A stretch of DNA of 38,504 nucleotides from Candidatus Obscuribacterales bacterium (GCA_020050835.1 JAGVKB010000107.1:1-38504); one strand, 5' to 3'. Shown: positions 15,601-38,400, numbered from the stretch's first letter. The notes: generated by a model from the sequence alone, not told the origin. A program made the numbers and translations.

Positions 15601-18600
15601 GTTGTGAGCTTTTGCCGACAGTTGCGAGCCGTCTGCCAGTTTGATTCCGCCGCCACCTAAATTCCACAGATACAGCCTTCCACCGCGGCCTTCTCCTCCG
15701 GTGCTGCCGGTACCAGCATCGGCCATTAAAGTGATTGTCGACAGATCGAACCGTTGGTTGTTGTGGACCTTAAGTGAGATCACACCGCCGGCTCCGGAAC
15801 CTGTATTGTCGAAGCCACCGCCGAAGGCGTTCAGTATTCCGGCCGGCAGCACGATAGTACCTGTCCCGCTCGTCCCGGCAGTCAGTTCAATTGTCCCTCC
15901 GCCGCCGTTTAGGCCAAGCGGAATTACATTGAGCGCGGACATGTTGTTTACATTGATGCTACCGCCGGTCGTGATTTCAATTCTGCCGCCGTCGCCGAAG
16001 TCGGAGCCGGGTGAGCCGCCATTGGCGAGAATTTGTACTTCTCCGTCATTGATCCCCAATGTGAGGTTGTCGCGAATATCGAGGAGGACCTCCCCACCTT
16101 CGCCATCGCCGGATGCCTTCGCGGAAAGAATCAAGTTACTGGTTGTGTTCAAGACCGAGCCCGCGATTCTAAGTGTTCCGCCCATTGACTCGAGTCCGCT
16201 CGCATCGACAGACAGTGTGCCACCATTTATGGTGACCGAGCCGTAAGAAAGCGTTTGCTCCTCTTCTGAATACTCGTCGATGGCGCTGCGAGCCAACAAT
16301 GAAATGGTGCCGCTTTCGCCATTCATTGACGCCACTGATAGACTTTCACCTGAACCGATCTTGATCCCGCCGGTGCCTGTGTTTTGTACCAAGATTGATC
16401 CGCCGCTGCCTTGCTCTAGTCCGCTCATCGCTGAAACCGATGCAGCCGATATGTCCAACTCTTGGGAGTTGTGGTTGGCGAACAAGATGACGTGCCCGCC
16501 ATCACCGAAGCCTTCACCGTTGCTGCCGCCACCGCGAGCATTGAGATTGCCGGACAATAGCCGGACAGTACCGTCGCCAGTCGGGCGCACACCGGCAAAA
16601 TCTACATCGCTACCACCCTCTTCGCCTTCATCATTGGAGCTCTTGTATGAGAACTGCCAGCCCCCTTCCTTTCCGTATTCAGTGAAGCAGCACTCATACT
16701 CGTTTTGAAGGTTGTTGCAAGTGGGACAATCGGCGACAAGTATGCCGTCGGCTCCTTGCAAACTCCCGGCGTTCAGTTCATAGCGAGCGCCAGCGCCATT
16801 GGTTCCGCGGCTATGGGCGTCGATCGCCGCTGCATCGTGAACGGTTAGATTTTGTCCAGCATTAATAAGGATGGTTCCACCATCGACGGTATCGCCGTTC
16901 GGTCCACTGAGTGCGAAAAGGCTTACCTGACCTGGAGCAAGACCGATGTCCAGATTGCCTTTGGTCTGATCGTCGAGCTCATTGGCCGGGTGATCGTAGG
17001 CAGTTAAAATCACCGACCCGCCGTGTCCGGAGTCGGTTGAATCTGCTTGCAGTGTTAGATGAGTATTTGTCGCTACTCTCAAGTTTTTGCTTGTGAGCGA
17101 AATTAGACCACCATCGCCGCTACCAGAGCCGTTGGCGCTGAATGTAATCGTATTGGGCGTGAGACCGCCGTCAATCACTACGTTCGATCCGGTCACAATA
17201 ATTGCTCCGCCAATGAAGTCGCCGCCTCCGGCATTGGCGGAAAGCCCGCTGTGAATGGTGATCGGACCGGAAGGGAAGGTGAATTGACCGCCAAGGCGAA
17301 TGTCGTCTTGAATTACTGTGGCGCTAATGACGATGATTCCGCCTTCTCCTACGTTCGAATTGACTGACAGCGATGAATTGTCACCGAGCGTGATACCGCC
17401 GGCTCCGGCGCTCTTGATTGAAATCAGTCCACCACCGCCTTGCGGTCCGCCTTCTGCAGACAATGAGCCGTCGATTGAGATAGCCGAGCTCGGGTGCGAA
17501 CTGTAGGACATAATGTTGATCAAGCCACCGTAGGCATCGCCCAATCCATCGACGTTGATGAAACTTTGTTGGTCGATAGTGATACTGTCGCCATAAATAT
17601 TTACTGCACCACCGCCGGTAGGATCATCAAAGTCTTCTATCATGCCATTCAGAGTAATGTTGCTGTTCATGAGATGAACAGAACCAGGTCTTGCAGAAGC
17701 CGTAACAAATGGGCTCAGTTCGCCCCAACCGTTGAGGGTGATTATTCCGGCCGACTCTTCGTTTGTCGAAGCTGATAGCGTGGCGTCAGTCAAGGTGATT
17801 CCGCCCGAGCCGTTATTGGTAATCTCAATTGCGGTGTCCGGTGTGGCAAAGCTCGAGCCCAGAAGTCCGTTTGAGATGATTTGGCCGGTAATTGTGATCG
17901 CAGCAAGCGAACTCCTCGCTGTGATGGATACCCGCCCCACCTTAAGAGACTGTCCAGATCTGTCGACTCCAATGGAGCTTGTGTCTAGAATTCCACTGAA
18001 GTTCACAGTCCCTTCGCCGGCTGCTCCGCCTATGAAGTTGACAGTGGCTCCGCCGATATTGGGAAATTCAAAATCTGGCAATAGTTTGATCTCGTCAGCA
18101 TCAACGTTTAAGGTGCCGCCGGCTGAAATAAGTACACCTCCTCCGGAGACAAAGCCGACTGAGGATCCCTGTCCGAGCTGGTCGAAAAAGAAGTTTTCCT
18201 GCACGCCCTGATTCAGGATTGAAATCTTTCCATCACCCGCACCGATGTTGATGTTGCCTCTCTCCGGAAGTGCCGCGGTTGGCCCGTCAAAAGTTGCTAT
18301 TAAAACGGCGCCTCTCAATCCGGCCGGCAAATTCTCGTAGTCTGGGTTGAGAACGGGCGAGGCGCTGGTGTTGATCGTTAAGTGCCCGCTTGTGACAGTG
18401 AGAGTCGATGCAAATATGAAGATGCCGCCTCCGTAAGTCGGTCTCTGTTCGGTGCCCTCTACCCCGTGCCCCTGAGCTGACAGAACTCCGCCTGCTATAT
18501 TGATTGGACCGCTGGTCTCTGTGTTTGCGTCTTCGAAATCGCCTTGACCGTTTAGACTGCTGGCATTCAAGAATAGAATTCCGCCATCTCCATTGTGGGC

Positions 18601-21600
18601 TTTAATACTTAAGTTGTCGGGGCTACCAACATTGATGCCGCCGGTGCCCCGGTTGGCGACCAGAATACTGCCGCCGTCTCCGCGATTGATGGTCGATCCG
18701 TCATAGACAGTGGTTTGAATTCCGGCGTCGGCCACCAGCTTGGTTTGGCTGATATCAAACAAGGAAGAGCTGCGAACAGACAGGACGAGTGCTCCACCTT
18801 GCCCAGTACCAGCCCCGTTGAGGCCACCGCCGCTGACATCGAAGCTGTTAAACTCGCCTTCGGCCAGCGCTGGCAGCATGATAGTGCCGTCACCGGCAGC
18901 TCCGGCAGTGAGATAGACAGTCGCTCCGGTAGCGTTGGATGCAAACACGTTGAAATTGATACTTACCATGTCGTGAACGGTGAGATCGCCGCCGGAGACT
19001 ATCTCTATGTAGATAGGCTGAAACAAGAAGCCAGCTCCAGCCAATCCGACATCAGCCTCCCTGGCGCCGGTGGTGGCCAGTATCTGGATCTGTCCAGAGT
19101 CGTCTCCGAAGTCCAAGCTATTGTTGCTGATGAGTTGAATTCTGCCGCCATCTCCAACCGGGCTGCTTACGTCGAGTGTTAAAGAACCTCCAATCACTTC
19201 GATTTCGGATGCTGCAATGTTGATTGTCCCGCCTGATGCCGAGCAGAAGAAGCATTCTGCAGGAAGTACTCCTACTGCTGAGAGCACGCCGGCACCGATC
19301 TCTACTGTTCCGAAGGAGGATACTGCGGCATTGCTGTGGTAAAGGTCCGCGTTGAGTTTGATCACGCCGCCTGTGTTCTTAAAGCCATTGGCGGAAACTG
19401 TGTTTGCACTGGCCAACTTGATTCCGCCGCCACCACGATTGTTGATGTTGATCAGTCCGCCGACTCCGCCAAACTCAGTATCAAGTGGAGCGTCTGCTCG
19501 TATTTCGATCGACGATACATCCAACATCTCTGCACTGTTGGCGGTCAAGAAAATCTGTCCGCCGTTGCTTGAAGTTTCTACAAGCGAGTTAGAAGCGTCA
19601 AGGACACCGGTCGTATCGAAGTAGATGTTGCCGTCTCCTGCTGTGCCTGCCTCCAATACGTAGAAGCCGCCCGAGCCGTAAGTCGGTTGGCTGGTGACTG
19701 CAGCCAGCTCCTTAACGATCAGATCATGACTGGCGTGGACTGCGACGCGACCATCGCGACCATTAACTCCACCAGCGTGGATCTCCAGCTGATTGTCGCC
19801 AGTGCCTAAAACGATATTGCCGGCAGGGTCCAATCCCGAAGTAGGCACCGCACTCGTTCTAATTGCCACGTTTTCGGCTGAAAGCACGGCACTGCCTGAG
19901 CCTACCGGTCCTTCGACGGCAATATCGCTCGCTACGATCAGCAGGTCACGATCGAAGATGGTCAGATTGCTGCCGCCGGTTAAGTAGACGGAGCCATCTC
20001 CAACCATTGAGTTCGTCGCACCATGGGCAGCGATCAAACTTAAGCTGCTTCTGCCGCTGGTGGTGACTACCGACGGGTCCGGGAAGGCGATTCCGCCCGA
20101 ACCGAAATTGGCTATTGACAGTTGACCTGAGCTGAAGCCTGGCATGACCGAAAGTGTCCCGCCCAATCCGTTGACTGGACTGGCCGGCGAGCCGACTGTG
20201 AAGACTGCATCGCTGACGGATGTGGCTGTGAAATTAGTCAAGACGCTCACGTTACCGTTGATGGCAACATTGCCGCCGGCAAACAGGGAGACTGAGTTGC
20301 CGGTGAGTCTACCGGTTGAAATCGAGCCTGGCGCCACCTTCGGCATTGTGACTTGGTTGACGTGAGCACTGTACGTCAAGAAATTGGGATCGTTCAGGTT
20401 GGCCCCAGTGAACCGGGTCTGGGCATCGGTCGCCACCGCGGCTGCGCATCCAGCTGCGCAAGTATCGATCTGGCCGTTGGCGTGAACATAGACGGTGGTG
20501 TTTGTCCGAGCTCTGGCGACAGCTAGGTATATGTGCCCTGCGGAGCCCGCTATGCCAGGGTTGGAGTTGATCTCTCCGACCGTGATGGCGTTGGTAACGT
20601 CGTCGCTGCTGGCTAATCGCCTGTCGGCAATGATCGTGACGTCACCGCTGTACTTATAATTGCCGGCGCCTTGATTGGCGGCGGTGGTGTTGATCAGTCC
20701 GTTGTCCGGAAGAAGCACCTTCCCGGTGTCAGTGCCAGAGCCTTGCAAGGCGATCATTGTGACATTGCCGCCACCGACATGACCGTCTTGTCCAACCGGC
20801 AGGATGCCGTGGCTGTCGATCAATGTGACAGGCTTGACCGAAACCAGGTCTATCTTTCCGCCAGTCGAGCTGGCAGTCAACACGGAGCCGAAACTAAATT
20901 GAGTCGGCGCGCTTCCGCCTGGAAAGTTTGCTCCCGCGATCAACGTGATATCTCCACCGCCGTTCACGCCGCTACTGCTGGTGTCAATCGTCAGCGGTCC
21001 TGGATTGCCGGACTCCGATGAATCTACCGAAATGTCGCCAGAAGCGATGATGGTAAGTGGATTGCCGCCGGTGACTGAAATGTCATCGGTCAGGAAGAAA
21101 TTGCCGTTGGCGGTATAGAGCGGGTCGCCGGAAAGCTCGACGCGGCCCAGGCGCAGATCGCCGGCAGTCGTGTGCACTTCGGTCGCAGTGCCATAACTGT
21201 TAACCACGCCTGTAATGTGTTCTGCAGACACTGTGACCTTGCCATGCCCGGAAAACAGGTTCAACTGTTTGCTCAAGATGTCGCCACCATTGAGATGAGT
21301 GTCGAAGCTGCCCTTGAACAGCGAGTCACGGAAGTTGATCGAGCCCGCCAGCGCTTCCAGTCTGCCGGCCAGATTGTTCACAACCAGAGTCTGCGCGAGT
21401 ATGGAGGCGAGATTTATGTTGCCGGTTGCCGAGGCGATCGTTCCGGAATTGATGATGTTGCCGGCGCCCGCAGCGAGATTGATGTTGTTGACCGCTTGCA
21501 TGACGGCGCTCTGCCCGGCATTGACGATCGAGCCGCCGGCTACAGCGGTCAACGCTCCGGAGCTTTGAATCGTTCCGTGATTGATAATGTCTGTCAGAGC

Positions 21601-22233
21601 GGTCAGGTGCAAATCGAGTGCCGCGACAGGATTTGCGAAGCCGGCGATGCCGGCGGCAGGCAATACGGACGACAGCAGCGCGCCTTGCTGGTTGTAGATG
21701 TTGGCGGCGCTGATAGCGGCGCTAGTTACTTGAGAGTTGGTAGAAAGGGCGTACAAATTACCTTGATTTACCAGGTTGCCAGCCAGATTCAACGAAGCAG
21801 CTGTTCCAAAATCTCTTAAGGCAGTTACGCCTTGCGGAATCACGAGATCGCTGACGTACTGGTTGAATTTAGCCCCCATCGTGAATTGCCCGCCGACCGC
21901 GTTGCCGAGATCGCCGAGCACGAGCCCTTGCTGACCGGTAGAGAAAACTTGATAGGCTGCCAGCCGCTCCGCCGGCGTCACCATGTCCTGGGCCCCGAGG
22001 GTGCGTGTCGTGTCTCCGACCTGAATCGTGATCGACCCCTCATTGGTGAGATGCCCGACTCCCAGATTGCGGTCGGTAGAGGTCAGGTCGAGATTGACCG
22101 GAGCGACCCCTGTTTGACTGCCGTCGGTTGCTGTCTGGGCGCTGGTTGTGAGGGTGGTTAACCCGTGAACAATCAGCAGATTAACAAACAAGACAGCCGA
22201 TACGAACTTGCGAAAAGACTTTTGTGACTTCAT
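9694..22233 (-). CDS. Giant haemagglutinin-like beta-helix exoprotein with poly-proline linker and FecR-like C-terminus
   Basis: This gene encodes 4179 residues without interruption. The ATG at 22233 is preferred over a TTG at 22308, because it gives a signal peptide (KSQKSFRKF, then a hydrophobic run, ending near SAQT at about residue 31) and has GAGAGAAAG upstream. Residues from about 35 to 280 resemble the N-terminal domain of filamentous haemagglutinins (LTNEGSITIQVGD, LNLAGNLVNQGNLYALS). Residues from about 280 to 3600 are Gly/Ser/Asn-rich parallel beta-helix-type repeats, arranged partly as a larger unit of about 240-270 residues whose anchor GxGGIxL recurs at about 19420, 18640, 17805, 17400, 16375, 15650, 14265 and 13500. 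Pro39 and Pro13 tracts follow (3629-3685), then two FecR-like segments (about 3775-3855 and 4010-4100). It is probably a surface or secreted adhesin or matrix protein. No TpsB partner, autotransporter barrel or sortase signal is seen. Confidence 0.9.
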   Translation of the reverse strand: MKSQKSFRKFVSAVLFVNLLIVHGLTTLTTSAQTATDGSQTGVAPVNLDLTSTDRNLGVGHLTNEGSITIQVGDTTRTLGAQDMVTPAERLAAYQVFSTGQQGLVLGDLGNAVGGQFTMGAKFNQYVSDLVIPQGVTALRDFGTAASLNLAGNLVNQGNLYALSTNSQVTSAAISAANIYNQQGALLSSVLPAAGIAGFANPVAALDLHLTALTDIINHGTIQSSGALTAVAGGSIVNAGQSAVMQAVNNINLAAGAGNIINSGTIASATGNINLASILAQTLVVNNLAGRLEALAGSINFRDSLFKGSFDTHLNGGDILSKQLNLFSGHGKVTVSAEHITGVVNSYGTATEVHTTAGDLRLGRVELSGDPLYTANGNFFLTDDISVTGGNPLTIIASGDISVDSSESGNPGPLTIDTSSSGVNGGGDITLIAGANFPGGSAPTQFSFGSVLTASSTGGKIDLVSVKPVTLIDSHGILPVGQDGHVGGGNVTMIALQGSGTDTGKVLLPDNGLINTTAANQGAGNYKYSGDVTIIADRRLASSDDVTNAITVGEINSNPGIAGSAGHIYLAVARARTNTTVYVHANGQIDTCAAGCAAAVATDAQTRFTGANLNDPNFLTYSAHVNQVTMPKVAPGSISTGRLTGNSVSLFAGGNVAINGNVSVLTNFTATSVSDAVFTVGSPASPVNGLGGTLSVMPGFSSGQLSIANFGSGGIAFPDPSVVTTSGRSSLSLIAAHGATNSMVGDGSVYLTGGSNLTIFDRDLLIVASDIAVEGPVGSGSAVLSAENVAIRTSAVPTSGLDPAGNIVLGTGDNQLEIHAGGVNGRDGRVAVHASHDLIVKELAAVTSQPTYGSGGFYVLEAGTAGDGNIYFDTTGVLDASNSLVETSSNGGQIFLTANSAEMLDVSSIEIRADAPLDTEFGGVGGLININNRGGGGIKLASANTVSANGFKNTGGVIKLNADLYHSNAAVSSFGTVEIGAGVLSAVGVLPAECFFCSASGGTINIAASEIEVIGGSLTLDVSSPVGDGGRIQLISNNSLDFGDDSGQIQILATTGAREADVGLAGAGFLFQPIYIEIVSGGDLTVHDMVSINFNVFASNATGATVYLTAGAAGDGTIMLPALAEGEFNSFDVSGGGLNGAGTGQGGALVLSVRSSSLFDISQTKLVADAGIQTTVYDGSTINRGDGGSILVANRGTGGINVGSPDNLSIKAHNGDGGILFLNASSLNGQGDFEDANTETSGPINIAGGVLSAQGHGVEGTEQRPTYGGGIFIFASTLTVTSGHLTINTSASPVLNPDYENLPAGLRGAVLIATFDGPTAALPERGNINIGAGDGKISILNQGVQENFFFDQLGQGSSVGFVSGGGVLISAGGTLNVDADEIKLLPDFEFPNIGGATVNFIGGAAGEGTVNFSGILDTSSIGVDRSGQSLKVGRVSITARSSLAAITITGQIISNGLLGSSFATPDTAIEITNNGSGGITLTDATLSASTNEESAGIITLNGWGELSPFVTASARPGSVHLMNSNITLNGMIEDFDDPTGGGAVNIYGDSITIDQQSFINVDGLGDAYGGLINIMSYSSHPSSAISIDGSLSAEGGPQGGGGLISIKSAGAGGITLGDNSSLSVNSNVGEGGIIVISATVIQDDIRLGGQFTFPSGPITIHSGLSANAGGGDFIGGAIIVTGSNVVIDGGLTPNTITFSANGSGSGDGGLISLTSKNLRVATNTHLTLQADSTDSGHGGSVILTAYDHPANELDDQTKGNLDIGLAPGQVSLFALSGPNGDTVDGGTILINAGQNLTVHDAAAIDAHSRGTNGAGARYELNAGSLQGADGILVADCPTCNNLQNEYECCFTEYGKEGGWQFSYKSSNDEGEEGGSDVDFAGVRPTGDGTVRLLSGNLNARGGGSNGEGFGDGGHVILFANHNSQELDISAASVSAMSGLEQGSGGSILVQNTGTGGIKIGSGESLSVASMNGESGTISLLARSAIDEYSEEEQTLSYGSVTINGGTLSVDASGLESMGGTLRIAGSVLNTTSNLILSAKASGDGEGGEVLLDIRDNLTLGINDGEVQILANGGSPGSDFGDGGRIEITTGGSINVNNMSALNVIPLGLNGGGGTIELTAGTSGTGTIVLPAGILNAFGGGFDNTGSGAGGVISLKVHNNQRFDLSTITLMADAGTGSTGGEGRGGRLYLWNLGGGGIKLADGSQLSAKAHNGGGGRIEIFAGSNSEEELPGNPPPVGTLEILGGTLSVDAHENDGGDYNGGELPLTITDLVVTNNLTLSANGAGGGDGGYVDIYSPEGDVVVGQNANQIKMFATGGSPGSTSGNGGRLAIYARNLTVTSHTFMNSGPLGANGSGGTYTFSGAILTLPAGALSARGGGVNGQGFGRGGTIYLNQNAEGQHLNLSNININTDDGIAGSFAEQSGNSVSIYAYGDLTIGTLSASAHDGGGSYISLTSAGTLTIPTGALSTSADGDFRGGTIYLSASTLNTAGTNLILTADAGGEGRGGTIGVSAGAIEVGSGAGRLQLFARGGSTGSDSGDGGSISVNGTAINILDLSKLDAGPRGNNGGGASYSLIASDLVTISGAGTLNASGGGADGLGRGYAGQIVINSYSSQLLDLSTNSFSVSSGAASTGFHPTFNFFDDSGRAGTISFVNYGTGGLKFAADSIVANAHNGRGATITIEAAHPFDNPTGGALTVVGGELSASADGSIISGGTNHCSFCVRGGSVTLRGSSISIIGANPLTIDASGSDNGLGGSITLTTLDATNGSLTFGSDQGQIEAFARSGPAGGMGGTINASAARDLRFGTMSALSVSPGGTTGDAGVFNLIAGTGGEGNIKHLNPLPGNPDLLGFAGSLRADGGSTSGIAGKINVSVTSIQALTISHTLSASSTNLAGVFVGDDRAIISLTNKGSGGISIESASNLLVQLPASRGGSIILNAANDDRTLSGTVKISVPTISVDAIGPGPQSGCCLGGNITIVGSKLDLSGIAGNNPLLLSANSFRTGQGGTIKVTTLGSGSQSDISVGNQSGQLQISATQAGTGTPDGYGGGTLWLISGNDLFVDMQHVIIAPSSAGQGAGGATYVLAANGKVQVTGDIDANGSVTTNGVAPNNVGYGGSIEIIYSDPDPDSLFVVGGLSPHSFVTGSITADNNGKIFIINRATTGKLNLQVDSTISARRPGVDVGYSTMSGSINLNISVALESFYNLYNFDGTIGQAVVVSGSGPLHGQLNLGGSSFTFDTGSLPQEQISPGVMASVLTLGRIDATSPEGFLFNFTGGNLVLSGALISSAQNEYNTGELAGNGNPVQISANGQLILRSILIGAGCPGCFDQSNPAGPITLSGSSVTLTDTTLNSNGPIIINAAPLTGQITVADSTIQTTAGLISMNAGQAVTLSHSTVSAGNPVDSIPDGSGVLNDSQFLSGGAITIQSKNINIIASELTSYKGDINLLAGIGGFINLQGIYGAPGYSDEGTGIEERPAAIARVTANGGNVYLFGETIFGSFFIISARANLIGVEPLTFTGGGVQFTASKFDTNMVNQIDPYFANRDFDNPEFTLSNLLNLENTVQFDAGDVGTLSLTQNLDNPGTVSVQGLYFGFREQIAGATIFDINGGVVNFGSPGAVLAFAPAAGAAAPPPPPPPPPPPPPPPPPPPPPPPPPPPPPPPPPPPPPPPSTPSSPPPPPPPPPPPPPQTPPQESREIPPTPQIQTQKVQTDTTPKEQPTPPQPPCTPTIMAAGSGSNDNSESDQSSSWYIAGGACQPFSFDLGDDTVIVGSGGSTFAPSGNHSVTIREGRLAIAAGTKGTHVNTMFGSVDLPNGSAGILEQKVAGVVRLVNLAGDNITVNVTANGKSKSLSAANGEELVIAANSVEEEELISTDGVDREPIAGAVTVADIGLKSRKSRVDRLMMANKEPLLVCNMGCLTAAAKKRWEKVIQSMNGKSVPIAQKPGSHKLHTANNQSGPAQTYTFTEPGVLDEAVLKPIRFLQSANTSPQMLAIQTLTTKSCSVKHTSSTKVTIESNGILNLKDGEVLIHAGQATVVKSGSSTLSLDPGSVALIKNSAGVLKVVNLYEPKGHSIKAIIGRHQTTLASGQEIIVGANDGSVPGELKRDATGRRRIKQVDIAKGSTIMRSEVSLVSLLGRDELLSKILKSNAPFDRQISKKLIKMAVCVNHVTAGHGAYSTVQP
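11179..11349 (-). repeat. Poly-proline triplet tract within the giant gene
   Basis: Codons at 11233-11349 encode 39 consecutive prolines (residues 3629-3667 of the giant protein). After STPSS, another 13 prolines are encoded at 11179-11217. All four CCN codons are mixed, so it is not a pure triplet repeat and is less prone to slippage than one. The plus strand here is G-rich, (GGN)n, with quadruplex potential. The tract would form a stiff polyproline II rod between the beta-helix and the C-terminal modules. Such runs need EF-P for translation. Confidence 0.95.
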
Positions 22234-22392
22234 CTTTCTCTCACCAGATTGATTAACAGCCCGTGCGGACCTGATCGCGGATGCCTGAACTTCAAGCGAT
22301 CCGGTCAAAACTTCATGCTTGCCTAATATGTGCCCGATCGGCGACGTTTTTAATCAGTTTGCTAGTTAAATGCCAGAAGGGTGAAGCACTGC

Positions 22393-25107
22393 TCAGGCGT
22401 CGGCTGACTCGGACGGAAAGATAGTCACTTGCTGAATCGTCTCTTCTGCGTCGCGCAGCCGGATGACGGCGTTGCGCAACATGCCCGAAAACTCTTGGCA
22501 GGTGGATACTGTCGGGTCTGCCAGTGGCGGATAAAGCGGCAGTCCGAAACTTACTTCGAGCGGAGCCGGTTGGGGGATGAAATTGCCCTTGGGCAGGATT
22601 TCGTTCGTTCCCTTGACATAGGCTGGGATAATCGGGCAGCCGACAGTGATGGAAAGCCTGGCCGCTCCGGGTTTGAAAGGACCGATCTGCCCGCCGGTGG
22701 AACGAGTTCCCTCCGGAAAGATGATCAAGATGTGCCCCTTACGCAGCAATTGCTCGCAGGTCTTCATGCTCTCTTCGAAATTGCCGTAGCGGTCGAACGG
22801 AACTGCGTTGAGGAGGTAGGTTGAGAAGGCTGAGCGCCAGGAGTCTGAAAAGAAGTAATCTGCCGCTGCGACCGGATGAACGATTGAAAGCAGGTGCTGT
22901 GGAAAGCTTGCCAGCAGAGCGATGCAGTCAAAATGGCTGGCATGATTGGCTGCCACAATGTAGGGAGGATCGAGCAGTAAACGGTCGGTGCCAGCCGTCT
23001 CGAATTGATTGTAGACTTTAATGGCGGTTCTGGCGGCGATCTCGAGCACTTTGCGGCTGGTAGTCACGATCGGATCATCACGGAGCGGCCAGGTGGACGG
23101 ATCGTGATGCTCGACTGGCCAGGACTTCCACTCGGTGCGCTGCTCAGGCAGGAGATCTTCCTGCCCTTCGGTCTTAGCAGGTTGCTCGCTCTGCTGCTGC
23201 AGCAGGTACTTCGCGAGGATAACGAGATCCTCGACTGTCTGTGCCTCTTGAACTGCGGTGTCCGGAACATCGACTGAAAATTGCTGTTCGAGCCGAAAGA
23301 CGAGATCGAGGCGAGCGAAAGAATCCAGCCCGAGATCGGCGCTCAAGCTCATTTCCGGGCTGAAGTATCGAGAGCCGGACGGGCAGATACCGCGCAAAAT
23401 TGCCGGGTCCATCACTTGCGAAATGACGTCGCAAACCTGTTTCCCGTCTTCATCCCAGGCAAACGAACTCTGATTTGACTTCTTGGAAGACTTCTTCTTT
23501 TGCTGAGCGAGTTCGAAGAGGCGTACAATTTCACCGCGCCGAACCTTGCCGGAGGCGGTTCTCGGTAGCTGCTGGTCCAAAACCTGGAAGCTCTGCAAAC
23601 GCTTGTAGTCGGCCAATTCGGACAACAGTTGTCCGATCTCATGCTTGATCAGCTCGTCTCTGTCCGGGCTGTTTGCTACTGAGTCGTGCACCACCAGTGC
23701 GGCACAGACTACTTCTCCGCGCGAACTCGGTTGCCCGAAGACGCATGCTTCCTTGATGATGGCGCTTTTAGAGAGTGCTTCTTCGAGCTCCTCCGGATAG
23801 AGATTGTAACCGCCGGCGGTTACAATCACCGATTTCATTCGGCCGTTGACGTGCAAATGCCCGTCCGAGTCGATCGAGCCGCTGTCACCGGTTTTAAGCC
23901 AGCCATTTACCAGTGCTTTGGTAGTTTCATCCGGATTGTTCCAATAGCCCTGCATGACATTGGGGCCCTTGACCAGAATCTCGCCGATGCCCAGAGCATC
24001 AGCGTTGTCGATTCGCACCTCTACCCCAGCCAGCGGTACTCCGACGCTGGTCGCTTTCTGGTTGGATCTGGTATTGGCGGCGACGATCGGCGCTGCTTCG
24101 GTTAGTCCGTATCCGATCAACAGTGTTATTCCAAGAGACCGAAGTGTCTCGACCAGCTCCGGTGGTGTGGGCGCACCACCGGCTAGCCAGAACTTGATGT
24201 TGCCGCCGAGCTCTTTGTGGAGCTCTTTCAGAAGTATCTTGCCGAGCGCGGGATTTTGGAAGACAATTCGACGCAGCAAGGCGACTTGCAGCTGTTTGGA
24301 CTTGGGAAGTTGTTCGAGTTTCGATTCAATGTCTTCGGTGATGCTCTGAAATACCAGCGGCGTCGCCAGCAAGACGGAAACTTTCTCGAACTTGAGCAAC
24401 TCCTTCAAATGCGATGGACCCTTGGGCTGGCAATAGACAATGGTGGCGCCCTTGTGAAGCGGACCGGCCAGACCGCCTGTAAACTCGAGCATATGCGAGA
24501 GCGGCAGCACGGAAAGCAAACGATCTTCGTTGGAAACTTCGAAGGCATTGGCCGCCGCCACGACGTTGGACAAGATGTTGCCGTGAGTGAGCACCACGCC
24601 TTTGGCTGTGCCGGCGGTGCCGGAGGTAAACACTATCAAGGCCGGATCTTCTCTGGAAGGAGACTGAAGATGCGGAATCTCAGGCAAGGGCTGCTCAATG
24701 AATAGACGCTGCAAAAGCTCCATTCTCGCCTTCGGAACGCGATCGCTGAACAGGATGAATTGTCTTTCTCCAAACAAGATTAGCCTGGGTTCGACTTTGT
24801 CGATGATCGGTAGCACTTCGCTCGCTCGGCTGCGGGCATCGAGCGGGACAACTATCGCGCCGATGCGAAAGGCACCAAAGCAGGCGAGCACCCATTCCGG
24901 AGAATTGTTGGCACAAATTCCAAGATAATCTCCTGGGCGGACACCGCGCTTCCAGAGTGCTTGAGCGGCCTGATAGGTCAATTTACTCAACTGGCGATAG
25001 GCGATCTCCCGCACCTTTCCGTTATGGATGTGCCGGAAGGCTATCCGGTCGGCAAAGCGAGCCGACGCTGTCAAGAATAGCTCTTGTAAGTTCTTGAATC
25101 GAGCCAT
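22393..25107 (-). CDS. Acyl-activating enzyme / acyl-carrier domain / PlsC acyltransferase fusion
   Basis: This 904-residue protein joins three functions. Residues 1-530 form an AMP-dependent acyl ligase: P-loop VFTSGTAGTAKG (159-170), GYGLTEAAP (332-340), GWLKTGD (402-408) and the C-terminal lysine in TASGKVRRGEI (K521). Residues about 555-635 are an acyl-carrier domain with LGLDSFARLD, Ser596 being the expected phosphopantetheine site. Residues about 680-880 are a 1-acylglycerol-3-phosphate acyltransferase (PlsC) domain with NHASHFD (721-727) and FPEGTRS (797-803). A Lys/Ser-rich linker separates the first two. E. coli Aas has the acyltransferase first and no carrier, so this order is distinct. 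It may charge a fatty acid onto its own carrier and pass it to a lysophospholipid. It is last in a lipid cluster, 34 nt after the CdsA gene. Confidence 0.92.
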   Translation of the reverse strand: MARFKNLQELFLTASARFADRIAFRHIHNGKVREIAYRQLSKLTYQAAQALWKRGVRPGDYLGICANNSPEWVLACFGAFRIGAIVVPLDARSRASEVLPIIDKVEPRLILFGERQFILFSDRVPKARMELLQRLFIEQPLPEIPHLQSPSREDPALIVFTSGTAGTAKGVVLTHGNILSNVVAAANAFEVSNEDRLLSVLPLSHMLEFTGGLAGPLHKGATIVYCQPKGPSHLKELLKFEKVSVLLATPLVFQSITEDIESKLEQLPKSKQLQVALLRRIVFQNPALGKILLKELHKELGGNIKFWLAGGAPTPPELVETLRSLGITLLIGYGLTEAAPIVAANTRSNQKATSVGVPLAGVEVRIDNADALGIGEILVKGPNVMQGYWNNPDETTKALVNGWLKTGDSGSIDSDGHLHVNGRMKSVIVTAGGYNLYPEELEEALSKSAIIKEACVFGQPSSRGEVVCAALVVHDSVANSPDRDELIKHEIGQLLSELADYKRLQSFQVLDQQLPRTASGKVRRGEIVRLFELAQQKKKSSKKSNQSSFAWDEDGKQVCDVISQVMDPAILRGICPSGSRYFSPEMSLSADLGLDSFARLDLVFRLEQQFSVDVPDTAVQEAQTVEDLVILAKYLLQQQSEQPAKTEGQEDLLPEQRTEWKSWPVEHHDPSTWPLRDDPIVTTSRKVLEIAARTAIKVYNQFETAGTDRLLLDPPYIVAANHASHFDCIALLASFPQHLLSIVHPVAAADYFFSDSWRSAFSTYLLNAVPFDRYGNFEESMKTCEQLLRKGHILIIFPEGTRSTGGQIGPFKPGAARLSITVGCPIIPAYVKGTNEILPKGNFIPQPAPLEVSFGLPLYPPLADPTVSTCQEFSGMLRNAVIRLRDAEETIQQVTIFPSESADA

Positions 25108-25141
25108 GTGAGCACCTTGGATGAGCCGAGCGCCTGACAGT

Positions 25142-26152
25142 TTACCTGAAGTTCATGGCAAGCAGGAGGAAATAGTAGAAAGCGGGGGTTGCAAAGATGA
25201 GGCTGTCGCAACGGTCGAGTAGACCGCCGTGCCCTGGAATCAGGTTGCCTGAGTCCTTGACTGCCATGTCCCGCTTGATTACGGATATTATAAGATCGCC
25301 CAGCGGAGCTGCCACTCCGATTATCAAGGCTGCTCCCAAAACTACCGGCAGGCTTAGTTCCGGAACGGCGTAACGAAAGATGAGGGCGGCTAGCAAGGAT
25401 CCAATCAATCCGCCGGCTGCTCCTTCTCTGGTTTTTTTTGGGCTGATCTTAGGAGTGAGTGGCGTTTTGCCGCAGAGTCGTCCGACGGTGTAGGCCAAGA
25501 CGTCATTGAACACCACCGTCATCGACAAGAAAATGATGTATCCAAATCCGCCTTGAAGCTCACGCAGAAATACCAGGTGTCCGAGGAACCACCCGAAATA
25601 CAAGATGCCGAGGATGGTGAATGCCTCCTTCATCAACATCCCTTCGTAAGTCTGCATGAATATAGGGATCGTTAAAACGAGCATTATAATGAAGACTGGC
25701 AGAATGTAAAACGGATGGAGCGCGTGAAAGAGCGAAACATCAGTCTTGAGCGGTAGTCCTGCTGATGCCGAAGCTAGACCTTGAAGTTTCGGCGGCAGCG
25801 GAGTCGATTCGAACAGGGCGGTAGCTACCAGCGCCACTCCCGAAACTCGGCCTACCCATTTGTAGGCTTCAGTGTCCCAGACATGGACGACATTGAAGAA
25901 TTCGCGCAAGCAGTAGAGCGCCATAGCGCAGACGAGCACAGCAAACGGCAGCCCTCCGAAATAGGCCGGAATTAGCACCACCGGCGCTATCATGTACCAG
26001 CTCAGATATCGCTTGCGCAGATTCTCGTCTGGCGCTCCCTTCTTCAGCTCGTACAGAAAGACACCGACTCCGGCGGCTAGAAAGAAGCCGGCTAAGATAA
26101 ACAGAGTGTCTCTAGCAACAGAGTCCAAGGACAGACAAAATGGAACGTTCAT
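25142..26152 (-). CDS. cdsA: Phosphatidate cytidylyltransferase (CDP-diacylglycerol synthase)
   Basis: This enzyme makes CDP-diacylglycerol from phosphatidate and CTP in the inner membrane. The 336-residue protein has about eight hydrophobic segments and ends with the full CdsA signature near residues 290-316 (SVIKRDMAVKDSGNLIPGHGG then LLDRCD), including the conserved Lys-Asp and terminal Asp. It is somewhat longer than housekeeping CdsA (about 270-285), as are YnbB-type paralogues. It sits directly after a YnbA-like CDP-alcohol phosphatidyltransferase, in the same order as ynbA-ynbB of E. coli as I remember it. It may therefore be a second, dedicated CDP-diacylglycerol synthase rather than the essential copy. 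The ribosome binding site is weak. Confidence 0.92.
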   Translation of the reverse strand: MNVPFCLSLDSVARDTLFILAGFFLAAGVGVFLYELKKGAPDENLRKRYLSWYMIAPVVLIPAYFGGLPFAVLVCAMALYCLREFFNVVHVWDTEAYKWVGRVSGVALVATALFESTPLPPKLQGLASASAGLPLKTDVSLFHALHPFYILPVFIIMLVLTIPIFMQTYEGMLMKEAFTILGILYFGWFLGHLVFLRELQGGFGYIIFLSMTVVFNDVLAYTVGRLCGKTPLTPKISPKKTREGAAGGLIGSLLAALIFRYAVPELSLPVVLGAALIIGVAAPLGDLIISVIKRDMAVKDSGNLIPGHGGLLDRCDSLIFATPAFYYFLLLAMNFR

Positions 26153-26178
26153 TTAAGTACACTTCTCAAGCTGGTTAG

Positions 26179-26859
26179 TCATTTCTGGTCTGGCTTCTGT
26201 TGGCCAAGCAGGTGAATGATGCGATCGAGACGTTGCAGTAATGTGATTGAGGCCAATGGGATGAAAAGCAGCAGCAGCAAACCGAAGATTGAATATCCCA
26301 TGCCGGTCCAATTAGGAAAGAGTCCGTAAAAAAGGCAGGCGCCCATCAGATAAATCATCCGGTCCGCCTTGCCGAGAATTCCTATGTACACTCGCTCTGA
26401 TGCTACCGCTTTACCGAGAATACCGATATAACTAACCATCAATATTGAGATGATAGAGAGCAAACCCGACAGCTTATCGACTGCAGGTGAAAGGGTCAAG
26501 CCAAGGAAGATAGCCACATCTGCCAGCCGGTCGCTGACTTCATTCAAGACCTCTCCGGCCGCCCTGGCTTTGCCGGTCTGCTGGGCCAGCATACCGTCGA
26601 GAGCGTTGAGTGCAAGTCTGGCAAACAAAAGCGGCACGGCCGCGACAGCCAAGAAAGGATGCTCGTACGAGTTACACAAAAGGATTCCAGCCAGGATGGA
26701 TAGAGCTAGCGCCGACCAGGTCAAAACATCCGGGTGAACATTCCAGAGCAGCTTGATCAGCGGCTGGAGCTGTTCACGAAACCACGGCTTGATATTGTAA
26801 ATTCCCATGCCGCCCTTCATTATGAATGCGCTGTTTTGCTGAGCGGAATCCTTGAACAT
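26179..26859 (-). CDS. CDP-alcohol phosphatidyltransferase, YnbA-like
   Basis: This integral membrane protein of 226 residues would transfer a phosphatidyl group from CDP-diacylglycerol to an alcohol. The start chosen is the ATG at 26859, with AGAGG close upstream. The frame extends to a TTG at 26919, and the ATG at 26808 (MGIYNIKPWFREQ) matches the start of YnbA-type proteins as I remember them, so the true protein may be shorter. The family motif is at residues 85-110 but is altered: Asn85 in place of the first Asp, Asp88 present, Gln93 in place of Arg, Asn106 in place of the third Asp, Asp110 present. Asn at the first and third positions is, to my recollection, usual for the YnbA branch. 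The gene starts a lipid cluster with cdsA 26 nt downstream. Confidence 0.85.
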   Translation of the reverse strand: MFKDSAQQNSAFIMKGGMGIYNIKPWFREQLQPLIKLLWNVHPDVLTWSALALSILAGILLCNSYEHPFLAVAAVPLLFARLALNALDGMLAQQTGKARAAGEVLNEVSDRLADVAIFLGLTLSPAVDKLSGLLSIISILMVSYIGILGKAVASERVYIGILGKADRMIYLMGACLFYGLFPNWTGMGYSIFGLLLLLFIPLASITLLQRLDRIIHLLGQQKPDQK

Positions 26860-26999: not shown

Positions 27000-28304
27000 C
27001 TACTGTCCTGGCAGCTGGCGATCGATCCGGCAAGCAGGCAGCTTGGCAAAGAGTTGAGCAGCTTTTGCCTCGCTGATGCTGGCAGGCAGATGTAGCTCGC
27101 GCAGATGAGTCAGTCGAGCCAGCTCGATAACGGCAGCATCGGTAATCTTAGTTGATTCCAGTCGCAGGTCGATCAGCTGATGTAGGCAGGCAAGCGCCTT
27201 CAGGTCTGAGTCATCCGTCTTAGTCCGGTTGAGGTGGAGGCGTCGCAGCGACGATAGGGCGCTCAGGCGAGATAGTCCGCCGCCTACTTGCGTATCGCTT
27301 AAGTCTAGCGCGTTAAGCGATCTGAGTTTCTGGAGATAAATTAGACCTTCGTTGTCGATCTGAGTGCCTTGTAGTGACAAGATATCCAGTCTGTTCAGCT
27401 TATCCAAGAATTGTAGCCCACGGCTGGTAATCAAGGTAGAGGTCAGGTTCAAGAATGAAAGTGATGGAGATTTTTGGAGGCAATGCATGGTTTGATCACC
27501 ACAGGTGGTGTGCTGCAGATCGAGTGCTCTTAAGTTGGCAATATTAGAAAAGTCGCACAGGCTCGTGCCATTGGTATGAGTTGAGTTAAGGTAAAGCTCT
27601 TTGAGAGAAGCAAGCCCAGCGATACTGGCGAGATCCTTTTCTTCAATCGATGATTTTTCGAAACTGATGAGCTCTAAATGCTTTAGATTTCGCCACGGTG
27701 AGAGATCGCCGCCGGCAAAGTTAGAATTGAAAATGAGCAGATATTTGAGCCTTTTCAGCCTGCCAATCGCCTGGACCAGCTCCGCAGTGGCGGACGGACC
27801 TCTATATTCGAGGACATCGATTGAATCGGGAGGAAAGCTTGATAGAACAGAGAGCTTGGCTTCGTTTGATCTGATTTTCAGCCTCAACAGGCCACCCGGC
27901 GGAATCCGGATCTCCCCCTTGGCCGGTCCGATATATTCCCAGGTCGTATCCCAGTATCCGGACTGGTGAGGGTATCCGATCTCCAGAGTACCGACAGTGC
28001 CGTCGCCGGGCAAGACGTAAATTCGATTACCGGCACCGGCTCTGCCGGCCGAGCCTTTCTCTTCTGGCGGCTGTGAGCTGGTGGTCGCCGCTGGCAGTTT
28101 GTCGAGCGTGATCTCCTTGTCGATCAGCTTCTCCAGTTTGGCGATAGCGGGGTCATCGATTCCAAATTTGACCGGTGGCTCTGCCGGTTCATACTTAACA
28201 GTCAGCAGTCTGAAAATTGCGCTGGCTCCAACTAGCACGCAGACAGCGACTCCAACGAACAGAGTAGCGATTAGCAGCCAGGTCCGATCTGATTTAGGTG
28301 CCAT
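27000..28304 (-). CDS. Membrane-anchored leucine-rich-repeat protein
   Basis: This 434-residue protein has one N-terminal membrane segment (about residues 9-32), a Pro/Lys/Glu-rich linker, then a beta-type domain (about 90-170). About ten leucine-rich repeats (about 175-425) follow, each near 23-25 residues, with the pattern LxxLxxLxLxxTxIxDxGL. They resemble the RNI/F-box-type LRRs common in planctomycetes and related bacteria. Such repeats usually bind protein partners. The orientation suggests that the LRR domain is periplasmic. It follows the SGNH gene after 56 nt and probably belongs to the MBOAT operon. No clear ribosome binding site precedes the ATG at 28304. The specific partner is unknown. 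Confidence 0.82.
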   Translation of the reverse strand: MAPKSDRTWLLIATLFVGVAVCVLVGASAIFRLLTVKYEPAEPPVKFGIDDPAIAKLEKLIDKEITLDKLPAATTSSQPPEEKGSAGRAGAGNRIYVLPGDGTVGTLEIGYPHQSGYWDTTWEYIGPAKGEIRIPPGGLLRLKIRSNEAKLSVLSSFPPDSIDVLEYRGPSATAELVQAIGRLKRLKYLLIFNSNFAGGDLSPWRNLKHLELISFEKSSIEEKDLASIAGLASLKELYLNSTHTNGTSLCDFSNIANLRALDLQHTTCGDQTMHCLQKSPSLSFLNLTSTLITSRGLQFLDKLNRLDILSLQGTQIDNEGLIYLQKLRSLNALDLSDTQVGGGLSRLSALSSLRRLHLNRTKTDDSDLKALACLHQLIDLRLESTKITDAAVIELARLTHLRELHLPASISEAKAAQLFAKLPACRIDRQLPGQ

Positions 28305-28360: not shown

Positions 28361-29608
28361 CTACTGCAAACTTTCCTTCGGACGATGAGCCAAGCCGGTG
28401 GCTGGCACAGACAAGGCCTCGGCCAGTTGACCGTTGGCTGTGATTGCTCCCGCTATCTGGTCGAGCAGTTTTTTGCCACCGGCTGAATTCATGTGCGAGG
28501 TGTCGTAGAAATCCGCTCTGGTAAAAGTGGAGCGGTCGTTGAGATTCAAGAACGGGCAGCACTTCTCTCTGGCGGTCCTCTCCAGCATCGCCAGATAGCG
28601 ATTGTAGTACCCCTCCGGCATTAGAGCCAGGTTTTGCTCGGTCAGTGGCATGTTTACAATCAGCACTGGAATGTCGCTGCTTCGACAGTAGTCGAGCAGT
28701 TTTCCGAGGAAGACAGTTTGAATGTCGAACATATCCCTGTGTTTGATTCGATATCGCTTCCTGTACTCGGCTGAGTTGTCTTCCCACGAATACGGCTGGT
28801 GGGAGCGCACGATGAACATGCGCTCCTCGACTTCGGAGCGTAAGTTGCTGGGCAGGTTCTTGGTGGGGTCGGCCCTTTCGATCAAACTTGGTACGCAGAA
28901 GCTGCTCACTTTCGGTGAAAGTGTTTGTTTAACCGCTTCGGCCAGGATGACCTGAGTGTCTAGTTTCTTACTCCAGAGATAGATTGCGTTGCCAACGTAG
29001 TAGTCGATGCGATGCCAGAATTGCGGCATGGCTATGCTGATTACGTCGCTTACATCCACGAATCGCTTCAGGTAACGAAACGGCGGGGTGGCGGCCGGGC
29101 AGCTGACACCGCTGTCTATGAAATCCCGCAAGGAGAGTCCAAGTACCAGAAGCTTTGGTTTGCGATCGGTGCGGAAGAGCGCTTTGGCAACGATGTAATC
29201 ATCCGAGATCATTGAGCCGGGTAAGGCGAAGTTAAAACAGGATGCCGTGCGCAAACCAAGCTTTTCTGAGACTAGGCTGCTGAGGTATTCGGATTTGTGA
29301 TGATGCACATAATCTAGGTCTCGTTTGAGAAAGTCCGCGTCCTGACGGGAGACTGGATGCATCATTAAGGACGAACCGAGTAGCGCTACAGATGGTGCCT
29401 GGTGCTGGTCGAGGTACTCGCGAGTTGCCCACCAGGTCCAGGTATGAGCGGCCGGGAGGCTGTCCGGATCTACCTTTGAAAGCGGTTGAGCGTACCAGAA
29501 CAGGACATTGACTGCAAAGAAGAGCGCCAGACCCGAGATGACATGACTTTTCCAGAAGGAGGCTTGTTCCTGCGGTCGAATGAGTTGATTGTTGTCTGGA
29601 AGTTTCAT
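28361..29608 (-). CDS. SGNH-hydrolase-like partner of the MBOAT acyltransferase
   Basis: This 415-residue protein has an N-terminal membrane anchor (about residues 21-41) and a periplasmic SGNH-type domain. VALLGSSLMMHP places the candidate nucleophile Ser at residues 79-80, and FYDTSHMN near 367-373 supplies the Asp-x-x-His pair. It resembles the DUF1574/AlgJ/DltD-type proteins that sit beside MBOAT transferases and move acyl groups onto exopolysaccharide. The start is the ATG at 29608, since the frame's first codon is TTG; it lies 9 nt after the MBOAT stop, with no separate ribosome binding site, so translation is probably coupled. The substrate, probably a cell-surface polysaccharide, cannot be deduced. 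Confidence 0.82.
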   Translation of the reverse strand: MKLPDNNQLIRPQEQASFWKSHVISGLALFFAVNVLFWYAQPLSKVDPDSLPAAHTWTWWATREYLDQHQAPSVALLGSSLMMHPVSRQDADFLKRDLDYVHHHKSEYLSSLVSEKLGLRTASCFNFALPGSMISDDYIVAKALFRTDRKPKLLVLGLSLRDFIDSGVSCPAATPPFRYLKRFVDVSDVISIAMPQFWHRIDYYVGNAIYLWSKKLDTQVILAEAVKQTLSPKVSSFCVPSLIERADPTKNLPSNLRSEVEERMFIVRSHQPYSWEDNSAEYRKRYRIKHRDMFDIQTVFLGKLLDYCRSSDIPVLIVNMPLTEQNLALMPEGYYNRYLAMLERTAREKCCPFLNLNDRSTFTRADFYDTSHMNSAGGKKLLDQIAGAITANGQLAEALSVPATGLAHRPKESLQ

Positions 29609-29617
29609 CAATCGATT

Positions 29618-31069
29618 CTAAAACTGGAAGTAGATGAAGCGCGGGGATGTATCGGGTGTGAAAACTATGAGTAAGGCGATCATTGCGGCTACGTATGCTG
29701 CCTGTAACGCCTTCGGAAATGAGAGCGGCCGCTCGCGTTTGCTGAGTTTGTTCGAAAGTACCTGACCGGCGAACAAGAGAGCAAGAATGAATGGCAGGAG
29801 CATGAACATCACTGGGTCTTTCGTTGATGGCAGGCTCAAGCTCCAAGTCTGCATCCCTTGCGACATCGGACCGAGGCAGAGCAGCTTGCTGATGATGGCG
29901 GTGGACTGGGCGAAGGTGTCCGCTCGGAAAAACACCCAGCCGATGCAGACGAGATGAAAGGTCGTGACAATGGACATGACGTGGCCGATTGGAGACTTAA
30001 GTGAGCTCTTAATCCAGGACACACCATCAGTCAGGCGTTGAAACTCACGATGCAAGATCAGAAGAATACCTTGATACGCACCCCAGACTAGAAAGTGCAT
30101 GGACGCGCCGTGCCAGAGTCCGCCCAGCAACATGGTCAAGAAGAGATTTCGGTAGACGAATAAGCGGCCGCCTCGACTTCCTCCCAGCGGAATGAAAAGA
30201 TAATCACGCAGCCAGGTGGACAGAGAGATATGCCAACGGTGCCAGAATTCGGCGATCGATGAAGCCAGGTAAGGAAGGTTGAAGTTGGGGGGCACTTTGA
30301 AGCCGATCAAAAGCGCTGACCCACGGGCGATGTCGGTGTAGCCTGAAAAATCAAAATAGATCTGGAAGGCGAAGGCGTAGACGGCCAACCACATGTCCAA
30401 GCTGCTTAGAAGCTCGGGATGATCGAAGGCGCTTTGCACAACAACTGCCAGATTGTCCGCGAATAGTACTTTCTTGAAGAGTCCAAACAGGATCAGATTG
30501 ACTCCTTGATCGAACCATTCCGGATTAAATTTCAGCTTTTCGGACAATTGCGGAATGAAGTCCTGATAACGCTTAATCGGCCCGGCTATCTGAGTGGGAA
30601 AGAAGCTGGCAAAGAGCGCGAAGGAAGGAAAGGATTTTACGACCGGACCACCTTTGTAGACGTCGGTTACGTAGTGGATGAACTCGAAGACGAAAAACGA
30701 GATGCCCAGTGGCAAAATGATCTGGAACGGCAGAGCGGGAAGGTGCTTACCCCACGGCGCAAGCGTTTGGTTAAGCATGTCGACCGTGAAATAGGCATAC
30801 TTGAATACGCCCAGAATAATCAAGTTGGTTGTCACTGCAGTGCACAACCAGAGTTTGCGCTTGCTATTGGCGCGAGCGATCGCGAGCCCAAACAGGTAAT
30901 TGACCAGAGTCAATCCCAGTATCAATAGGCCATAGACTGGTTTCCAAGTCATGTAAAAGACGTAGCTGGCCACCAAGAGTAGTGGCACTCGCCAGCGCTG
31001 CGGGCAGGACCAGAAAAGCAGCACCACAATCGGCAGAAAGATTAGATAACCGAGGCTGTTAAAGAGCAC
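29618..31069 (-). CDS. MBOAT O-acyltransferase (AlgI/PatA-type)
   Basis: This polytopic membrane protein of 483 residues has the classical MBOAT opening (LFNSLGYLIFLPIVVLLFW). Conserved segments are FPTQIAGPIKRYQDF (157-171), FDFSGYTDIARG (239-250), EFWHRWHISLSTWLRDY (274-290) and GGLWHGASMHF (316-326), where His320 is the expected catalytic residue. Members of this branch pass acetyl or other acyl groups across the membrane to extracellular polysaccharides such as alginate or peptidoglycan. Translation starts at a GTG at 31069, with AGGGGAG 7 nt upstream. It is the first gene of a probable operon with the SGNH protein and the LRR protein, and a promoter is visible upstream. Confidence 0.95.
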   Translation of the reverse strand: MLFNSLGYLIFLPIVVLLFWSCPQRWRVPLLLVASYVFYMTWKPVYGLLILGLTLVNYLFGLAIARANSKRKLWLCTAVTTNLIILGVFKYAYFTVDMLNQTLAPWGKHLPALPFQIILPLGISFFVFEFIHYVTDVYKGGPVVKSFPSFALFASFFPTQIAGPIKRYQDFIPQLSEKLKFNPEWFDQGVNLILFGLFKKVLFADNLAVVVQSAFDHPELLSSLDMWLAVYAFAFQIYFDFSGYTDIARGSALLIGFKVPPNFNLPYLASSIAEFWHRWHISLSTWLRDYLFIPLGGSRGGRLFVYRNLFLTMLLGGLWHGASMHFLVWGAYQGILLILHREFQRLTDGVSWIKSSLKSPIGHVMSIVTTFHLVCIGWVFFRADTFAQSTAIISKLLCLGPMSQGMQTWSLSLPSTKDPVMFMLLPFILALLFAGQVLSNKLSKRERPLSFPKALQAAYVAAMIALLIVFTPDTSPRFIYFQF

Positions 31070-34406: not shown

Positions 34407-35324
34407 ATGAAAGTTGGTGTAAGCGGCTCGTCTGGCCTCGTAGGCTCAGCGGTCGTCTCATTGTTGACCAAGAATGGCCACAGTATTTACAGGTTGGTCC
34501 GGTCGAGCGCTAACGAGCGGTCGCAAGACGGCAGCCGGCTGATCGCCTGGAATCCGCAATCCGGAGAAGTTGACAGCAGCAAGCTGGAGGGTCTTGATGC
34601 AGTCGTCCACCTGGCCGGCAGGGGGATCGCCTCAGGCAAGTGGACTCCGGAGGTGAAGCAGGACATTCGCGACAGCCGTCTTAAGGGTACGGCTCTTTTA
34701 TGCCAGGCTCTGTCCAGGCTGTCCGTTCGTCCGAAGGTATTGGTCTCGGCGTCGGCTGTCGGTTATTACGGAGACCGCGGTGCTGAGCTGTTGCATGAGG
34801 ATAGTGCGGCGGGAACCGGATTTCTCGCCGAACTTTGCCGGGATTGGGAGGCGGCCACCGAGCCTGCTGGCAAAAGTGGAATTCGGGTGGTCAATCTTCG
34901 GATCGGGGTGGTGCTTAGCACCGTCGGTGGTGCGCTAGCGAAAATGCTGCTGCCGTTTCAACTGGGAATCGGAGGGCAGATCGGGTCCGGCAAGCAATAT
35001 ATGAGCTGGGTAGCTTTAAACGATCTGGCTGGGATTGTCGACTTCGCATTAAGCAACGACGGATTGTCCGGTCCATTGAATGCTGTCGCACCAAACCCGG
35101 TGACTAACTTGCAGTTTACTAAAACGCTGGGAGCGGTATTGGGGCGACCGACTATCCTGCCCGTCCCTGATTTGGGTCTGCGGCTACTTTTTGGCGAGAT
35201 GGGAGATGAACTCCTTTTGAGCGGGCAGCGCGTAGATGCATCAAAGCTACTGGCCGCCGGCTATCAATTCGAGCTGCCTGATCTGGAGCAGGCGTTGCGG
35301 CGCGTTATCAGCGGTGCTGGTTAA
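34407..35324 (+). CDS. TIGR01777-type NAD(P)-dependent epimerase/SDR-family protein
   Basis: This 305-residue soluble protein has the Rossmann motif GSSGLVGSAV (residues 7-16). It also carries family-typical WNPQSGEV, VVHLAGRGIASGKWT, SASAVGYYGDRG, FLAELCRDWEAAT, LRIGVVLSTVGGALAKMLLPFQLGIGG and SWVALNDLAGIVDFAL. It is of the YfcH/TIGR01777 group of extended short-chain dehydrogenases, whose substrate is unknown. The start ATG has GGAGAA about 8 nt upstream. It is the only clear plus-strand gene in the window and its stop overlaps that of the converging gene at 35321. It is divergent from the SRPBCC gene, with 172 nt between them for promoters. Confidence 0.94.
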   Translation: MKVGVSGSSGLVGSAVVSLLTKNGHSIYRLVRSSANERSQDGSRLIAWNPQSGEVDSSKLEGLDAVVHLAGRGIASGKWTPEVKQDIRDSRLKGTALLCQALSRLSVRPKVLVSASAVGYYGDRGAELLHEDSAAGTGFLAELCRDWEAATEPAGKSGIRVVNLRIGVVLSTVGGALAKMLLPFQLGIGGQIGSGKQYMSWVALNDLAGIVDFALSNDGLSGPLNAVAPNPVTNLQFTKTLGAVLGRPTILPVPDLGLRLLFGEMGDELLLSGQRVDASKLLAAGYQFELPDLEQALRRVISGAG

Positions 35325-38314: not shown

Positions 38315-38400
38315 AGCTGGACCGCTCCTATGGTTTCCAGTTTCTATTCTCCAGCCCGTGTGAGGAGATAGTGCGATCAAACACAACTCGCGTCAATGGG

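Follow-up and report, generated by a model that had tools for sequence, protein, structure and literature searches.

The closest described relative of the protein considered here is ElbD, an ether-lipid enzyme of Myxococcus xanthus in which a fatty acyl reductase (FAR), an ACS-type adenylation domain, an acyl-carrier domain and an AGPAT/PlsC-type acyltransferase domain follow one another in a single chain (PMC9131029); its described operon includes no CdsA, YnbA-like or MBOAT gene, and ElbD homologues have been reported in many phyla (PMC11868695). In Escherichia coli Aas, acyl activation is also fused to a lysophospholipid acyltransferase, but the PlsC domain comes first (NHxSxxD at residue 35) and there is no carrier. 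A further point of comparison is the E. coli gene set ynbA-ynbB-ynbC-ynbD, for which the literature we found describes only YnbB, in MPIase synthesis (PMC6362211), and no function for the cluster as a whole. Here we analyze an operon that joins an adenylation-carrier-PlsC fusion with ynb-type genes. It lies in a 38,504-nucleotide stretch (the window; GCA_020050835.1, JAGVKB010000107.1:1-38504), which is one whole 38.5-kb contig of the 7.0-Mb assembly of a Candidatus Obscuribacterales bacterium. Obscuribacterales/Melainabacteria are non-photosynthetic relatives of cyanobacteria. All features of the window named below are on the minus strand.

The fusion gene (22393..25107) encodes 904 amino acids. 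From the N- to the C-terminus the protein contains an AMP-binding (adenylation) domain (residues 14-389, 23941..25068; PF00501, E = 1.4e-75), an AMP-binding_C subdomain (residues 440-521, 23545..23790; PF13193), an acyl-carrier (PP-binding) domain (residues 583-629, 23221..23361; PF00550, E = 3.2e-8) and a PlsC acyltransferase domain (residues 706-831, 22615..22992; PF01553, E = 1.2e-22), each exceeding the Pfam curated cut-off. The PlsC patterns NHxSxxD, FxR, FPEGTR and IIPxY are all kept, as NHASHFD (721), PFDR (770), FPEGTR (797) and IIPAY (826). The order is that of ElbD, with the difference that the reductase is absent, and the reverse of Aas. Residues 595 and 596 are Asp-Ser, and Ser596 (codon at 23320..23322), the serine of the canonical DSF/DSL carrier motif, is the predicted phosphopantetheine site. 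All 16 fusion proteins in an alignment of two related groups share Asp595-Ser596, and Lys521 of the AMP-binding_C subdomain is likewise invariant among them; the serine is kept in 14 of 14 fusions drawn from about seven phyla. In an AlphaFold model of the protein, with a mean predicted local distance difference test score (pLDDT) of 80, the carrier region contains helices 553-565, 568-574, 596-610, 616-621 and 625-641; Ser596 starts a helix within this short, carrier-protein-like bundle, at moderate confidence (local pLDDT ~60-78). An AcpS able in principle to modify Ser596 was found in the genome by family search.

Directly upstream is a gene for a CdsA-type phosphatidate cytidylyltransferase (25142..26152; PF01148, E = 4e-58) that has the CDP-diacylglycerol synthase signature. 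Among the E. coli proteins compared, it is nearest to YnbB (122 bits, vs 92 bits to CdsA). It is preceded by a YnbA-like CDP-alcohol phosphotransferase gene (26179..26808), whose product matches PF01066 weakly (23.0 bits, cut-off 22) and YnbA at E = 4e-21, vs E = 0.04 for E. coli PgsA. The operon continues upstream on the same strand to 31069 with a leucine-rich-repeat gene, an SGNH gene and an MBOAT gene; from the MBOAT gene to the fusion gene, the intergenic gaps are 6, 56, 191, 26 and 34 bases. An initial annotation of the window, made from the sequence alone, had described the three-part 904-residue protein with its carrier serine, the two upstream genes and the contrast with Aas, and the family searches, alignments and structural model agree with it on each of these points. 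It had also named the transferase correctly, but the reading frame, open to 26919, probably starts at 26808, as suggested by conserved homologues, rather than at 26859, and the operon extends well past that gene. A promoter scan did only slightly better than chance and a terminator scan did not exceed it; Rfam gave no match in the window.

The gene order is conserved in relatives. One locus (L050) keeps the order MBOAT-SGNH-YnbA-YnbB-fusion, with all genes co-directional and neighbours separated, or overlapping, by a few tens of bases, and four others (L049, L051, L127, L128) hold near variants or contig-truncated copies. In seven loci the transferase is at least 54% identical to that of the window; the MBOAT-SGNH pair lies upstream in six of them, and the fusion is present downstream wherever the contig extends, although 6 kb away in L052. 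The leucine-rich-repeat gene (27000..28304; Pfam) is interposed in the window genome and has no matching counterpart in the sister loci L049-L052. The window thus holds a real, conserved operon that combines known parts, and within this analysis the union of the carrier fusion with ynb genes occurs in Obscuribacterales only.

Neither half of this union is confined to the order. YnbA-like, YnbB-like and free-standing PlsC genes occur together in the relatives L130, L132, L135 and L138, in Burkholderia, on a Pseudanabaena plasmid and in L137 (in both of these with a methyltransferase gene), and in Shinella, where YnbC-type and YnbD-type genes accompany them. PlsC is therefore a recurrent partner of the pair, and its place in the window is taken by the fusion. 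The E. coli, Pseudanabaena, Burkholderia and Shinella clusters share with the window a transferase motif with two asparagines, described below, and a YnbB-like CdsA, as well as, outside E. coli, the PlsC partner; they differ in that their PlsC is free, whereas in the window PlsC follows adenylation and carrier domains in one chain, the hydrolase-methyltransferase YnbC is unlinked (a homologue of its methyltransferase part, 44% identical over 262 amino acids, is encoded elsewhere in the genome) and an MBOAT-SGNH pair has been added. We conclude that the cluster is of the ynb type, with PlsC either replaced by, or grown into, the adenylation-carrier-PlsC fusion. The fused PlsC is 27-35% identical to the free ynb PlsC proteins, and a PlsC tree sets the fused group alone on a weakly supported base. 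In L137 (8761-9849), the YnbA-like transferase extends into a flavodoxin-like C-terminal part and is clustered with the methyltransferase, CdsA and PlsC genes; this cluster adjoins an MFS-PlsC-adenylation protein encoded on the opposite strand.

The adenylation-carrier-PlsC order is also found in Oligoflexia, Nitrospirae, Bacteroidales, Desulfuromonadales and Acidobacteria, and a version preceded by a fatty acyl reductase occurs in Planctomycetota and also in a protein of Latescibacterota in which Pfam does not score the carrier. No relatives of the fusion were found on viral contigs. The fusion is not the rarity implied by the initial annotation: it is the core of ElbD and a type already known, so the locus is not a new kind of system, and what is new is the combination with ynb genes. 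That combination is conserved in relatives, as a survey of gene order, proposed at the time, now indicates; the fusion by itself proved widespread, and the MBOAT-SGNH pair had been missed. A FAR-dependent ether-lipid route was rejected for this organism because its genome has no true FAR, the best PF07993 match reaching 69 bits vs 206-226 bits in true FAR fusions. The bacterial family of the window organism has a second group of adenylation-carrier-PlsC fusions (L053-L064), which share about 27% identity with the window protein and lack ynb neighbours. A common origin of the two groups was considered, but PlsC and adenylation trees separate them on well-supported branches without resolving the base, and so show neither convergence nor an ancient shared origin. 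In an Oligoflexia locus (L071, 9851-12343), adenylation and carrier-PlsC occupy two consecutive frames, which may be a natural split or a frameshift.

On balance, we favour, by a modest degree, the reading that the operon specifies a lineage-specific phospholipid branch of the ynb type, which draws its acyl groups from an acyl-activating carrier of its own and is possibly followed by O-acylation on the outside. The sequence itself shows the domains, the motifs and the conservation of gene order, and from these we infer each of the following reactions. The N-terminal domain would convert a free fatty acid into acyl-AMP and load it onto the phosphopantetheine of the adjacent carrier at Ser596; the C-terminal PlsC domain would place the acyl group on the unoccupied position of a lysophosphatidate supplied by the housekeeping PlsY route; the YnbB-like enzyme would form CDP-diacylglycerol; and the YnbA-like enzyme, with its non-canonical active site, would attach a special head group. 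In the weakest step of the scheme, the MBOAT-SGNH pair might afterwards O-acylate the lipid, or an envelope partner, on the outside. The acyl chain added by PlsC-type enzymes is the second one, and the cluster includes no first-step (glycerol-3-phosphate) acyltransferase; the module is therefore not self-contained, as had first been supposed. Family searches found PlsY, another PlsC-like gene (L013), a second CdsA and a PgsA-like gene elsewhere in the genome, which indicates that the operon would run as a side branch next to normal phospholipid synthesis.

Several observations weigh against this reading. The canonical pattern DxxDGxxAR(x8)GxxxDxxxD is not matched by the NxxDGxxA...GxxxNxxxD motif of the transferase: the first and third aspartates are Asn and the arginine is Gln. 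Two of the four canonical aspartates are thus replaced, as they are in E. coli YnbA. Moreover, N75, D78, G79, A82, G92, N96 and D100 are invariant in 11 YnbA-family sequences, including E. coli YnbA, drawn from the bacterial class of the window, one cyanobacterium and alpha-, beta- and gamma-proteobacteria. With Asn at two catalytic Asp positions, the reaction is uncertain across the whole YnbA family, and it is possible that the protein is no ordinary CDP-alcohol phosphotransferase. The initial annotation, which made this enzyme the last step towards a finished phospholipid, was right about its YnbA-like identity but overlooked the two substitutions. The solved structures nearest to the family are bacterial phosphatidylinositol-phosphate synthases (E = 1e-17), which have Asp at both Asn-substituted positions; a family search of the genome found no INO1 member, so inositol phosphate is no obvious head group, and we rejected its supply via INO1, other routes still being possible. 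In one orthologous locus, L051, no CdsA gene separates the transferase from the fusion, and another, L052, has the fusion at a distance from the rest of the cluster. A genome search for a YnbD-like phosphatase gave no match, but it was run without a positive control and is uninformative. No biochemistry of ynbA-ynbB-plsC was found in the literature searched.

If the proposal is true, a single protein should be able, with no CoA, to make phosphatidate from fatty acid, ATP and lysophosphatidate, and the ElbD-type adenylation-carrier-PlsC core would have a use beyond ether-lipid synthesis. An acyl donor built into PlsC would be a handle for reconstitution in vitro and, combined with the two neighbouring enzymes, should reveal the ynb head group. 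The uncharacterised ynb cluster, with relatives in E. coli and several phyla, would become testable through this operon.

The alternative that survives best is Aas-like fatty-acid salvage or lysolipid repair, in which the fusion re-acylates lysophospholipids with free or released fatty acids and the CdsA and YnbA-like genes are mere neighbours. The fusion does have the activities expected of Aas, in reversed order, and in the second fusion group, a related but separate type, one gene (L057) stands beside a patatin-like phospholipase gene. Nevertheless, orthologous loci keep the window fusion together with YnbA-like and YnbB-like genes, and the association of YnbA, YnbB and PlsC is seen repeatedly in different phyla; de novo synthesis of one particular lipid accounts better for this. 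We therefore regard salvage as unlikely, while giving it a real share of the probability.

Somewhat less probable still is that PlsC uses acyl-CoA or acyl-ACP supplied in trans, the carrier domain being structural or serving another acceptor. Family profiles and PDB comparisons place the adenylation domain of this fusion type closest to acyl-CoA ligases, as such a reading would predict, and the transfer of the acyl group within the chain is a prediction from the domain arrangement. The invariance of the carrier Asp-Ser pair (16 of 16) and of its serine across phyla (14 of 14) argues the other way, as it implies a selected phosphopantetheine site acting in cis.

The remaining alternative concerns the MBOAT-SGNH pair. 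The MBOAT O-acyltransferase (29618..31069; PF03062) is DltB/PatA-like, with DltB as a PDB match at E = 4e-26; it contains a GGLWHGAS block with the conserved His, and scores 179 bits against the NCBIfam profile LTA_dltB, below the cut-off of 375. Its C-terminal hexapeptide FIYFQF (codons at 29621..29638) matches FXYXXF, the acyl-shuttle motif of MBOAT-SGNH systems, and MBOATs that themselves bear such a motif have been described as using acyl-CoA (PMC12148441). The SGNH acyltransferase-like protein (28361..29611) has one N-terminal helix and GSS and DTSH blocks, the GSS and DxxH positions being invariant in an alignment of SGNH proteins. Its model (pLDDT 67) has DltD as the top PDB fold match (E = 8.5e-6), with a poor global superposition. 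The two proteins therefore resemble the PatA-PatB and DltB-DltD pairs in the FXYXXF-tailed MBOAT and the SGNH partner with a DltD-like fold, and differ from them in being encoded within a phospholipid operon. The Dlt system has separate DltA, DltC and DltX proteins and an MBOAT that receives its acyl group from a carrier, whereas here the carrier is fused to PlsC and the shuttle motif is on the MBOAT. The pair was also considered as exclusive to this operon, which we rejected, as genomes of the family usually have several MBOAT copies: genes of this type number 8 in the window genome and up to 11 in genomes of the same bacterial family. Some MBOAT loci have several tandem SGNH genes, with at least three beside one MBOAT in L158.

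A Dlt-like relay, in which the adenylation and carrier domains would serve the MBOAT-SGNH pair as DltA-DltC and the acyl group would be delivered (or delivered as well) to a head group or polymer on the outside, is improbable: the operon does hold every kind of Dlt part (adenylation, carrier, DltB-like MBOAT, FXYXXF shuttle and DltD-fold SGNH), linked in six of the seven loci, but MBOATs with their own shuttle motif are the described acyl-CoA users, MBOAT orthologues 65-77% identical to this one are present in genomes without this fusion (G017, G018, G033) and are multi-copy in the family, and the PlsC domain already supplies an acceptor for the carrier. We attach equally little probability to a mixed scheme in which the acyl pool of the carrier would be split between the in-cis PlsC, for the diacylglycerol core, and the MBOAT-SGNH pair, for O-acylation of the head group on the outside; this would merge a Dlt-like relay with a phospholipid pathway, yielding a multiply acylated phospholipid with a functional Asn-substituted YnbA-type site.

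Other genes of the window were noted in passing. An open frame of 4204 amino acids (9694-22308) lies 84 bases downstream of the fusion gene; its product has an N-terminal export-like segment, a long repetitive glycine/serine-rich region and poly-proline tracts, with no Pfam match, and looks like a giant secreted or surface protein. A compact tryptophan operon, identified with Pfam, occupies 1721-8150 (TrpA, TrpB, TrpF, TrpC, TrpD, TrpG, TrpE), and at 35321-38386 a 1021-amino-acid open reading frame has a dCTP-deaminase-like domain in the middle of the protein.

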